Source: Henckelia pumila
Lineage: Eukaryota > Streptophyta > Magnoliopsida > Lamiales > Gesneriaceae
NCBI RefSeq assembly: GCF_033568475.1
Contig: NC_133121.1
Coordinates: forward strand, 1,612,001 to 1,676,000
Direction: 5' to 3'
DNA length: 64,000 nucleotides
The translations under genes were made by a program, and so were the position numbers. Shown one piece after another: positions 8,398-13,269 of the stretch. Positions within the stretch are counted from its first letter, which is position 1. Every line of letters starts with the position of its first letter. Below the pieces are notes generated by a model, which was given only the letters and a program-made list of their open reading frames with translations, did not search any database and had not been told where the DNA came from.

Positions 8398-8523
8398 GCA
8401 CAATATTATTTTTAGTAACCCATCGAATGCAATGATATCATTATTGTCGTTATTTAGTATGCACAATATTATTTTTAGTAACCCATCGAATGCAATGATA
8501 TCATTATTGTCGTTATTTAGTAT
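8398..8523. repeat. Exact 63-bp tandem duplication
   Basis: The 63 bases from 8398 to 8460, beginning GCACAATATTATTTTTAGTA, are repeated without any mismatch from 8461 to 8523. The identity of the copies implies a recent slippage or repair duplication in non-coding DNA. Confidence 0.9.
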
Positions 8524-9016: not shown

Positions 9017-9025
9017 GTATATAAA
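9017..9025 (+). promoter_or_regulatory. TATA box ahead of the ERF gene
   Basis: TGTATATAAAGC near 9016-9027 is a good TATA match. It lies about 450 bases ahead of the upstream ORF and 920 bases ahead of the main start, which would give a long leader containing one intron. A later transcript start cannot be excluded. Confidence 0.45.
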
Positions 9026-9478
9026 GCACACTTTCAACTATGATTCAGCAACCCCACAGACATCACTATCATCCCCACAAGATGAATGAATAAATGTGTG
9101 TAAAACAATACATACAATATACGTATGAGTTGACATAGATTATTCCCCGATTTTTTTTAATATAAGAGGGTAAGGAACGATATTTTTATTGATCCTGTGT
9201 TTTTTTATCCTTTCTTGGTCAGTCAATTGTTGGTATTACACAAACAAAAGGAGAAATCTTTCTTGTTTCTGCAAGTTCGTCGGTGATTCGTGCCCTGGGT
9301 TTTGTTTTCGTTGTTATTCTGGCAAAATCGTGATCGTCGCTTTGAATAGATTGTGGGCTTTTTTTTTTTTCCTGCGAAACATTTCTTGTTTGTACTTACC
9401 CGATTTTTTTGTGTGTTTCTTTTTGGTGGTGTTATTTTATCTTTGTTGAAGTTTTGAGAAGAGAAAGCAAGAGATTTT

Positions 9479-9870
9479 ATGTCGGCAAGTTTTAATCTGG
9501 CTTTAAACTTTGGGGCTGTGTTGAAGCTCTGTTTTTCATCGATTCTTGCTGACTGCATGCCAGAATCTCTCTGCCTTGTGATCGAGCAGAGTGTCAGCTC
9601 TTTCTTCTCTACCGTTTCGATGCGTTTTAGGCCCAAAAGGTAAACAGTTCCTTTCATTCCCTTAAACCCTCTTAAGGGTTTTTGGATTTCATTGACGTGT
9701 GTTTTTTAGCGCTTTCTATGTTGATCTGAAAAGAGGAGTTGTTAATTTTTTTCTTCTGTTTTGATTGCAGGAGTTGCTCTGGCGTTGTTTATTTCGGGGG
9801 ATATCACATAAATCGATTGCTTAATATTTTTTTGTTCTTCAGAGAACCTCGTACTGAAAACACTCGCTGA
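9479..9870 (+). CDS. Upstream ORF in leader of CRF-type ERF gene
   Basis: An 86-codon upstream ORF runs 9479-9639 and 9771-9870, interrupted by a leader intron with donor AG|GTAAAC and acceptor TTGATTGCAG. It begins MSASFNLALNFGAVLK, contains ESLCLVIEQSVSSFFS and VVYFGGYHINRLLN, and ends in TGA 75 bases before the main ATG. It is an ordinary-looking peptide, not low-complexity leader, and it stays open across the splice. From memory, Arabidopsis relatives of this ERF subgroup (CRF10 and CRF12) carry an annotated conserved-peptide uORF. I infer that this is its counterpart and that it limits translation of the main ORF. Internal ATGs exist, so the exact start is uncertain. Confidence 0.65.
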
Positions 9871-9945
9871 TTTTTGGGGGTAAAAAATCGCTATCATTTT
9901 GTTTGTTCTGTTTGCACTACTATTTTGGGGATACCCTTGCTTGCA

Positions 9946-10983
9946 ATGAGGCTTTGTGACGCGGAGAAGCAAGAAAATTCGTCCGAGCCTCGTAAATTTG
10001 TCCCGATGAATCAAGAACAAAGTGCAAGCAGACGCCAAAAAAATAAGTTTCAATCGTCCAAACCCACAAGGAAAGTTCTACTTGTTTGTGACGATCCGGA
10101 TGCTACTGATTCTTCTGATGATGAAGGATCTCCAGATATGAAAAGAAAGCGGTATGTTTGGGAAATTTGTTTACCAATTCATGCTCCGAGCAGAGCAGCT
10201 AATGCCCCCAAAACAGAGATTTTGGTCCGAGGTAGCAACAATGATGATACGAATCTAAAAAACAAGAGTGTTGTACCCACGGACCTCAGCAGGCCAAGAG
10301 TCAGTGCAAAGAAATACAAAGGCGTTCGCCAACGGAAATGGGGAAAATGGGCAGCAGAAATACGTGATCCGATCCAACAAAAAAGGGTATGGTTGGGGAC
10401 TTTCAATAGCCCTGAGGAGGCATCCAAGGCTTACGAAACAAAACGAATGGAGTTTGAGGCATTGGCTAATAGCATCAGCTCCAATTCTACGAAAAATTCA
10501 AATGATGCTCACAAGAATCAGAAGAAAATTAATCTTGATGTGCCCGAGGAAGCAAGTCTCAGCGTTGTGTCGCCTACTTCTCGCGTACCTCCATCTTTGG
10601 TGGTTGAATTGAATTCTTTTGTCGCGGTTCCGGTTATAGAGTTCAAGTATGAGAATGAGAAAACTGATGAAGTCTTTGTAGGGGCTAGTGGGCTAATGGA
10701 TGAGGAGCTACTGTCTTTAGCAAAAAATGATCAAGAACTAAACCTGGACTTGGATCTCGATTCACACCCCATATGTGACGACGTTTTTGGGATACCAGTG
10801 GACGTCTCCCAATTTGGTTTTGATGATCTTCCGATTAGTGGTTTCAAGGTTGGTGATCAGCCTTGTGAGTTGCCAGATTTTGACTTCGACTTTGATTTCG
10901 ATGCTTATGGTGAAACATTTTCTTGGATGGACGAAGCACCACCTCTTAAAAGCGGAACCCCCCTTAATGTAGCTTGTCCTTAA
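9946..10983 (+). CDS. AP2/ERF transcription factor, CRF10-12 (ERF118/119) type
   Basis: This intronless 345-residue nuclear DNA-binding protein has an N-terminal CRF domain at about residues 42-61 ([18 protein letters not shown]) and one AP2/ERF domain at about 123-170 ([20 protein letters not shown], then RVWLGTF). After the WLGTF strand the helix reads [15 protein letters not shown] in place of the usual Ala-rich version, which is the mark of the CRF10-12 subgroup. The tail is acidic, with alternating DFDFDFD near residue 310, and probably activates transcription. The open frame extends further 5' but without an ATG, so the start is the first ATG at 9946. A long leader with an intron and a spliced uORF precedes it. 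A TKPR2-like gene lies tail-to-tail 595 bases downstream. CRF proteins act in cytokinin-linked development, but the role of this copy is inferred. Confidence 0.9.
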
Positions 10984-11578: not shown

Positions 11579-13269
11579 TTAAAGGAATTCCTTGTGTTGG
11601 AAACTCTTTATGCAATCATCAAACATTTGATCTAACGTTTTGAAAGCTGGGAGACCCAATTCGATAATCTTGCCGCAATCCATGCTATGCTCGTTGTTAT
11701 CTCCTTCTTTATCGCTACATCTGGGAAAAAAATGAACAAACTTTTTGAATATTAATCCATTTTGGTTTTGTCTATGCTGCGTCAGGAGTGCTACACTCAC
11801 TGTAGTTGCATAAAACAAAACGTTTGGAGTCTGTTCGTATAAACATCTTATGAAAACTAAACCGAGAGCTATCCACGATCTTTTAACACCAATAAGGCTC
11901 AATGTTTAGATCATAGGGACTCACTTGGTTACGTATGGATAACTTGGATATCTGGACCTTAAAATATCAATAATTTCTGACCAGTGTGCAACAGAGCTTG
12001 AACATATAAGCCTGCCGGATGCTTTGGTTTCTTCCATGGCCAATATATGCGCATTCACTACATCTTCTATGTGCACGAAGCCTACCGTTGTGTTGGGGTA
12101 CTCTTCAATAAGGCCTAACAAAAGTAGCAGATCACGAACACACAAAATCATGGACCCAAAACGAACCCGAAATAGAAAACAGAGAGAAAATGTTAGGATA
12201 AATGTGTTCTCTTGAATCAAAAGGAGAATAAAAATACAACCTTTGACAATGGACAATATAATGACCAAAGTACTAGTTGGCTGAGGTGCAAGTAGTGGGC
12301 CAACTACAAATGAAGGGTTCACGACAACTAGATCTATCCCACTTTCCTTGGCCATTTTCCATGCTTCTTTCTCTGCTATGGTCTTCGCATAAGCGTACCA
12401 CAGCTGCACAAAGGATCGAGATCGATTTTGAAATAGTCTAATATCGATTTTTTGTGCATTATTGTGTGCTGGTGTTTGCATAAAAGGGAAATAAGTTAGA
12501 ATAGGATTTGGTTATACATTGTATCGTTGGCAATATTCTGTATCACTCCAGTGAGATTCGTTGAGAGGTGATACTGTATCGACGTCGTATCGGTATCTTA
12601 TGGAAGAACAAGACGAGGTTAATACGACCCTTTTCACACTGCTTGTTTTCTTGCACGAGTTGAGCACATTTAAGGTCCCTCTTATGCATGGATCAATCAA
12701 ATTTTCCTGCAATGTTCATTAGATGAATGTTACACTAAATCCAGGCATATGAAAGTTCATTATATTCACTAGTAGTACTTATTGACAAAAATATTCAGTC
12801 TACTCTCCTTAAATTAACTTGCCTTGACATTAGCATCGTATGCCACAAGCACCGGCGACGCGGTGTGGAAAACGCCGTCGACTCCAGCCACGGCTTCGTC
12901 GAAGCTTCCCTCCGCCAACAAATCAGCTTTTACAATATGAAGCCTCTCCTTGGCTCCATTTAGCTCCCAAAGATAGCTTATTTGGTCTACATTTTCTGAT
13001 GTAAAAACAAAGATAAAGACATTTGATGAGTGCAAACTTATTAATGTTTTTAAAATTGCTTTAAAAATTTTTTATATAATTAATATCATTATATATATAT
13101 ATATATATATATAAAAAAAAAAACTAGCCCAAGTCCTGATCATGATGAAACGATGTTCCGAACCTGGATTGCGTGCGGTGGTGACGACGGTGTGACCTTT
13201 TCCGAGCAACGACTTGACGAGATGTGCCGCGATAAATCCCGTGCCCCCTGTCACACAGTACTTGCCCAT
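11579..13269 (-). CDS. TKPR2: Tetraketide alpha-pyrone reductase 2-like (CCR/DFR-type SDR)
   Basis: This NADPH-dependent extended short-chain reductase has six coding exons: 13164-13269, 12823-12995, 12518-12706, 12241-12403, 11925-12114 and 11579-11720, giving 320 residues, the family length. [17 protein letters not shown] at the N-terminus is the Rossmann dinucleotide site. [10 protein letters not shown] and [14 protein letters not shown] supply the catalytic Ser and the YxxxK pair. The run [18 protein letters not shown] and the end [18 protein letters not shown] match TKPR2 (CCRL6), which reduces tetraketide pyrones for sporopollenin in tapetum. Junction phases fit throughout. The second intron must use a GC donor (AAG|GCAAGT), since the nearest GT would create an immediate stop. 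The gene is intact and convergent with the ERF gene. A broader CCR-like role is the alternative. Confidence 0.92.

Follow-up and report, generated by a model that had tools for sequence, protein, structure and literature searches.

A putative homology group 21 upstream open reading frame in Henckelia pumila, with a selected peptide core encoded across a predicted leader intron

The ERF gene and its leader

The window analysed here, a stretch of 64,000 nucleotides from the genome of Henckelia pumila, carries on its forward strand an open reading frame of 345 residues (9946..10983) that encodes an AP2/ERF transcription factor. The AP2 domain was recognized by Pfam in residues 123-172 (E 1.5e-12), and we take the gene to be of the CRF10/12 type. 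Convergent with it, on the reverse strand, lies an ORF (11921-12481) matching the NAD-dependent epimerase/dehydratase family (PF01370, E 3e-7). Upstream of the ERF frame there is a predicted uORF that comprises 86 codons once spliced, its frame remaining open across a GT...AG intron whose GT is found at 9640 and whose AG ends at 9770. The first exon (9479..9639, forward strand, as are all the leader features described here) holds codons 1-53 together with the first two bases of codon 54. The leader intron (9640..9770, 131 nt, GTAAAC...TTGCAG) is in phase 2, its splicing being predicted from the sequence, and the second exon (9771..9870) supplies the last base of codon 54 and runs to codon 86, followed by a TGA at 9868-9870. 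An intercistronic spacer of 75 nt, devoid of AUG (9871..9945), separates this stop from the main ATG at 9946. An initial annotation of this DNA had described an 86-codon frame crossing the intron and ending 75 bases before the main ATG, and its coordinates were all reproduced. The encoded peptide is made of an N-terminal extension (residues 1-47, 9479..9619), a conserved core (residues 48-72, 9620..9825, split by the intron), which reads MRFRPKR followed by SCSGVVYFGGYHINRLLN, and a variable C-terminal tail (residues 73-86, 9826..9867). The in-frame AUGs of the uORF correspond to M1 (9479), M27 (9557) and M48 (9620).

The length of the frame proves little. Transcription was assumed to start near 9050, based on TATATAAAG at 9018-9026, which was picked by eye as the presumed TATA box. 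In the assumed spliced leader of 765 nt the longest ATG ORF is the 86-codon uORF, and when this leader was shuffled preserving its dinucleotides, an ATG ORF of at least 86 codons appeared in 117 of 2000 shuffles (mean 51, maximum 166). Since that many shuffles attain 86 codons, length was rejected as evidence, and the case thus rests on conservation. Close to the presumed transcription start, between 9040 and 9138, five further upstream AUGs open frames of 2-17 codons, one of them nested in another. About 0.5 kb before that presumed TATA box, a 63-nt AT-rich unit forms a perfect tandem duplication (8398-8523, 2.0 copies, 100% match).

Related leaders and selection along the peptide

A search with the peptide across the 885-Mb host genome (133 contigs) yielded nine pieces, scored as nine candidates, and all nine lie immediately ahead of one or another of five related main ORFs, which stand well apart in score from the other AP2 genes of the genome. 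These copies are the window gene itself (C2a), C2b (C2:118.16 Mb), C1 (at 118.78 Mb), C79 (at 0.72 Mb) and C2c (C2 183.94 Mb). C1, C79 and C2c are older copies, and C2b is a recent one, 92-98% identical to C2a depending on the leader segment. A degenerate core pattern, built from those same copies, gave four matches in the host genome, all at the five related loci, C2b escaping it owing to one changed base; the reversed pattern, used as a control, gave no match on either strand. The core patterns found no match in viral and prokaryote sequence collections, as expected for such collections. A PDB search with the peptide gave a best E of 0.0097 (a GPCR homolog), with no stretch passing alone, and this hit was attributed to chance.

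With the splice sites of the copies chosen by motif, the position of the leader intron was identical in all five, its length varying from 122 to 161 nt. M1 and M48, a start of the form ATGTCGG(C/A)A and a matching core are likewise present in the five copies. The frame opened at M1 reaches the core in four of them (86 aa in C2a and C2b, 85 in C1 and 79 in C79); in C2c an additional GAAG and a further difference in length shift it off the core, and it ends after 74 aa without reaching it. The core is followed by tails of 10, 14, 14 and 15 residues in C1, C2a, C2c and C79, respectively. Among the pairs of copies with an intact frame, the recent pair (94% in exon 1) excepted, identity amounts to 74-84% in exon 1 and to 49-69% in the upstream region, the intron and the spacer. 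Exon 1 of C2c is 65-72% identical to the others despite an M1 frame that misses the core. It is conservation, not length, that makes this predicted uORF real.

Selection was evaluated segment by segment with a GY94-type codon model, assuming the four-copy tree ((C1,C79),(C2a,C2c)), with C2b excluded from all model-based tests. In the core, omega was 0.076 with C2a, C1 and C79, and 0.107 when C2c was added (LR 24.3, p about 8e-7); pairwise counts gave 0.05-0.12, and third positions differ at 10 of 25 codons between C2a and C1 and at 11 of 25 between C2a and C79. For comparison, omega was 0.33-0.37 for the main ORF among the copies and 0.19 for its AP2 domain. Outside the core, peptide-level selection was not detected, either over residues 1-47 as a whole (omega 0.95, p 0.88, with C2a, C1 and C79 and no third-position excess) or in the tail (omega 2.0, p 0.27, not different from 1). 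Within the extension, omega for the same three sequences stood at 0.42 in residues 1-21 (p 0.10) and at 1.64 in residues 22-47 (p 0.35), and pairwise omega over residues 1-47 was 0.70 (C2a-C1), 0.89 (C2a-C79) and 0.48 (C1-C79). The initial annotation had treated the 86 codons as one protein-like peptide, which overstates the case: conservation of the peptide holds for residues 48-72, but neither for residues 1-47 nor for residues 73-86.

The extension has another peculiarity. Its silent-site divergence (0.32, 0.27 and 0.31 for C2a-C1, C2a-C79 and C1-C79) is lower than that of the main ORF (0.66, 0.69 and 0.56, in the same order), with Fisher p values of 0.00029, 2.4e-5 and 0.013 for pairs that share sequences and are therefore non-independent. 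In the core, silent divergence resembles that of the main ORF in two pairs and falls below it in the remaining one (p 0.6, 0.59 and 0.02). Slowed silent sites in the former and a low omega in the latter indicate that exon 1 appears to be restrained at the nucleotide level and the core at the level of the peptide. Some nucleotide-level constraint is thus likely to operate over 9479-9619, where silent and replacement sites are conserved alike.

Relationship to homology group 21

A uORF family with these traits has already been catalogued. Homology group 21 (HG21) was defined by At1g68550 (ERF118) and At1g25470 (ERF116), ERF genes of group VI-L, with a uORF of 87-90 aa that has a Ser/Thr-rich (ST-rich) middle and conserved lengths at both ends (Table 6 of PMC2075485, published in 2007). 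The pair has been named CRF10 (ERF118) and CRF12 (ERF116) (PMC3426882), their uORFs have been named CPuORF53/54, and the uORF was also reported in a physic nut gene (PMC4778941). The statement in the initial annotation that this ERF subgroup (CRF10-12) has a conserved-peptide uORF in Arabidopsis is therefore borne out. As regards the conservation in other eudicots on which that annotation had made its reading depend, the evidence is divided: HG21 gathers 16 sequences from eudicots and monocots, including Oryza, Hordeum, Allium, Beta, Glycine and Eschscholzia, but for groups 20-26, in four of which (out of seven) the rice genes have uORFs, these were too dissimilar to be picked up by the Arabidopsis-rice comparison of that study (PMC2075485). 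The main text of PMC7106846, in the sections available, names neither At1g68550 nor At1g25470, and the core peptide strings had no match in the paper text searched.

The window gene shares with HG21 an AP2/ERF main ORF, a long uORF (86 aa here, close to the published length) and a peptide under purifying selection. As for the terminal lengths, M1 is kept in the five copies, the frame to the core in four, and the tail spans 10-15 residues. The two cases differ in resolution: the published Ka/Ks of 0.47 (yn00) and 0.44 (codeml) spans the whole uORF and, like the main-ORF values of 0.11 and 0.09, derives from Arabidopsis sequences only (PMC2075485), whereas here the constraint was resolved to residues 48-72 and found in these only. 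A discordant datum, which counts against assignment to HG21, is that the At1g68550 uORF has also been given as 96 nt, at odds with 87-90 aa (PMC2527020). The same source describes a 117-nt uORF in rice AK102277, whose start context, TCTATGC, has T at -3 and is close to that of M48 here (TCGATGC). These two short uORFs, together with C2c, prompted the consideration of a short form starting at M48 as the sole real one, which was not adopted since 87-90 aa is the length given for Arabidopsis (PMC2075485). M1 and M48 may both be used as starts.

The case is genuine but largely an ordinary one, and it fits a family that is already known. What is new here, a modest addition, is that the peptide-level selection maps to 25 residues, 48-72, around the predicted splice junction. 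In the literature searched, mostly open-access text, we found no arrest experiment on HG21 and no report of an intron inside its uORF or of a segment-wise selection test, which is not a claim that such reports are absent.

Possible mode of action and alternative explanations

The start codons offer some hints about how such a leader could work. In the spliced leader, from 9125 to the main ATG, M1, M27 and M48 are the only AUGs, and all are in one frame. Each carries a T at -3 and either T or C at +4, a weak context given the plant consensus A/GNNAUGG (PMC11062462); at the main AUG, position -3 is a G. The T at -3 of M1 and M48 is kept in the five copies. Counting from M1 to the main ATG, the AUGs that share the frame of the uORF number 3 of 3 in C2a, 3 of 3 in C1, 2 of 2 in C79 and 3 of 5 in C2b; in C2c they are in mixed frames, and the frame of the core is entered only from M48 and from an earlier AUG nearer M1 (offset 22). 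Such a putative arrangement is what would be expected if a repressive uORF were bypassed by leaky scanning.

Taking these observations together, the uORF is most probably a member of HG21, placed there by gene type and length, that is entered through weak AUGs, represses in a peptide-dependent manner, is bypassed by leaky scanning and is relieved by a signal. This reading is favored because the intron position and the core are common to the five copies, because of the selection on the core, and because the gene type and length fit those published for HG21; the AUG contexts and the derepression described for Arabidopsis CRF10 also speak for it. According to this model, some scanning ribosomes would start at M1, M27 or M48, all of which would feed one and the same core of 25 residues, whose codons span the splice junction. 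While still nascent, probably within the exit tunnel, this core would let fewer ribosomes through to the main AUG that follows after 75 nt, because it slows or halts them, blocks re-initiation, or both, and leaky scanning past the weak AUGs would sustain a basal translation of the main ORF. The leader peptide would thus probably hold back the production of the regulator. The notion that the nascent peptide controls translation of the factor, already present in the initial annotation, is consistent with the strong selection on the core and with HG21; the repression itself we infer, as we do splicing and translation in the plant, the arrest site and letter-level membership in HG21.

With regard to the point of arrest, the core ends 10-15 residues ahead of the stop, which at termination is about the depth of the tunnel constriction. 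The core would then lie near that constriction, and a stall right after residue 72 would set it beside the peptidyl-transferase centre. A variable tail next to the stop is unusual among termination-arrest peptides and counts against the model; arrest could take place during elongation or be absent. Both modes, termination and elongation arrest, have been discussed for CPuORFs (PMC9305500).

As to the relieving signal, phosphate status might be a candidate. A review, citing Bazin 2017, states that in Arabidopsis the CRF10 transcript, which contains the uORF, is derepressed when phosphate is deficient (PMC11062462), and the signal acting here could be the same. HG1 bZIP11, HG15 SAC51 and HG18 TBF1 have in common with the present case a conserved leader peptide on the mRNA of a regulator, and in the reviewed cases of this type a metabolite modulates repressiveness (PMC11062462); they differ in that their peptides and signals are other ones, the phosphate link of HG21 coming from the review only.

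Several other explanations have to be weighed against this proposal. The slowed silent sites of the extension, together with its omega of 0.95 and the lack of a third-position excess, could mean that exon 1 was conserved as DNA or RNA and that its frame is largely incidental. This reading applies to residues 1-47 only, is compatible with membership in HG21 and is a possible one, to which the similarity retained by exon 1 of C2c, with its M1 frame off the core, lends weight. However, M1 is kept in all five copies and the frame in four, and omega falls to 0.42 in residues 1-21 and to 0.48 between C1 and C79. Nor did the common fold reach significance. RNAalifold, applied to four copies (without C2b), paired UUUGGGGCU with AGGCCCAAA around M48, but a conserved structure was rejected because 43 of 500 shuffles scored as low (z -1.54); no pair had changed on both sides, single-sequence folding gave z of -0.46 and -0.79, and strong pairing of the two arms within the mature leader was limited to one of the five copies. 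A shared RNA fold does not account for the conservation of exon 1. A combination can also be conceived, rather improbable in our opinion, in which a splice-assembled 25-residue module is joined to a 5' exon kept for its nucleotides, the latter setting entry at M1, M27 and M48; if true, splicing would decide whether the arrest module is made, and how the leader is processed in the nucleus would then bear on how much of the factor is translated. Another alternative would be a passive uORF, in which upstream termination alone lowers the output of the main ORF and the peptide is inert in the tunnel. Weak AUG contexts and a short spacer suit plain leaky scanning, and neither the extension nor the tail is significantly selected as peptide, but the low omega of the core (0.08-0.11), with its many silent changes, demands a cause at the peptide level and makes this unlikely.

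The initial annotation had further proposed that splicing of the leader acts as a second switch, that is, that regulated retention of intron 9640-9770 drops the core and alters the output of the factor. Since the intron splits the core, the whole core would exist only in spliced RNA; the intron position is shared by the five copies, and retention strips the exon-2 part of the core in every one of them. Moreover, retention of a 5'-UTR intron can control uORFs in plants, as in PIF3 (PMC11062462). Here and in PIF3 a leader intron and a uORF interact, but there retention adds a uORF, and here it would shorten one and still leave a uORF in place. Retention brings the frame to a stop at the junction codon in C2a, C2b, C79 and, when read from M48, C2c, because the G of a phase-2 donor completes the codon and the TAA or TGA of a GTRA donor follows, so that the stop is automatic. 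Such truncation is expected of any phase-2 GTRA intron and hence is no sign of a switch; in C1, with a GTAT donor, retention reads on for 20 codons. The predicted truncation simply follows from the splice consensus, the proposal of a second switch was left unsupported, and regulated retention is distinctly unlikely. Finally, the core might work in trans, as a small protein made from a dicistronic mRNA and then released, as suggested for HG8 and HG30 (PMC3426882). An internal block under selection, with an end at the stop that is free to vary, would be in keeping with it. Nevertheless, the peptide was found only before related ORFs (9 of 9 pieces in the host genome), no Pfam family was matched at E 1 and no credible PDB relative emerged, and this explanation is regarded as highly unlikely.

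If the assignment to HG21 is correct, the locus would add to that family a member supported by evolution inside one plant genome. It would also confine the functional stretch to 25 residues on either side of the splice junction, and so point to the codons to recode and the place in which to seek a stall. Should the uORF respond to phosphate as reported for Arabidopsis CRF10, editing the core would be a direct test of the tuning of a cytokinin response factor by its uORF.

Two of the copies deserve separate mention. In C2c (C2:183944079-183945119) the core is kept, the main frame is open and its C-terminal motifs are intact. Its AP2 region gave no Pfam match at E 0.01 and has lost two of the three tryptophans that C2c's three counterparts share, both replaced by C. 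A uORF maintained while the AP2 domain decays was considered for this copy but goes no further than a remark, as the branch tests were not significant (p 0.07 for AP2, 0.25 for the main ORF and 0.45 for the core); the omega of its core is inseparable from 1 (p 0.60), and a comparison of counts was not significant either (11/41 vs 2/19, p 0.19). In C2b (C2:118163491-118165072), gaps of 1, 4 and 5 nt break the main frame, with a stop after 80 codons, and the core has W in place of G, the 86-codon uORF being still open. Between C2a and C2b, residues 1-47 show eight replacement changes and one silent change, as expected of a decaying copy, and C2b looks like a pseudogene.
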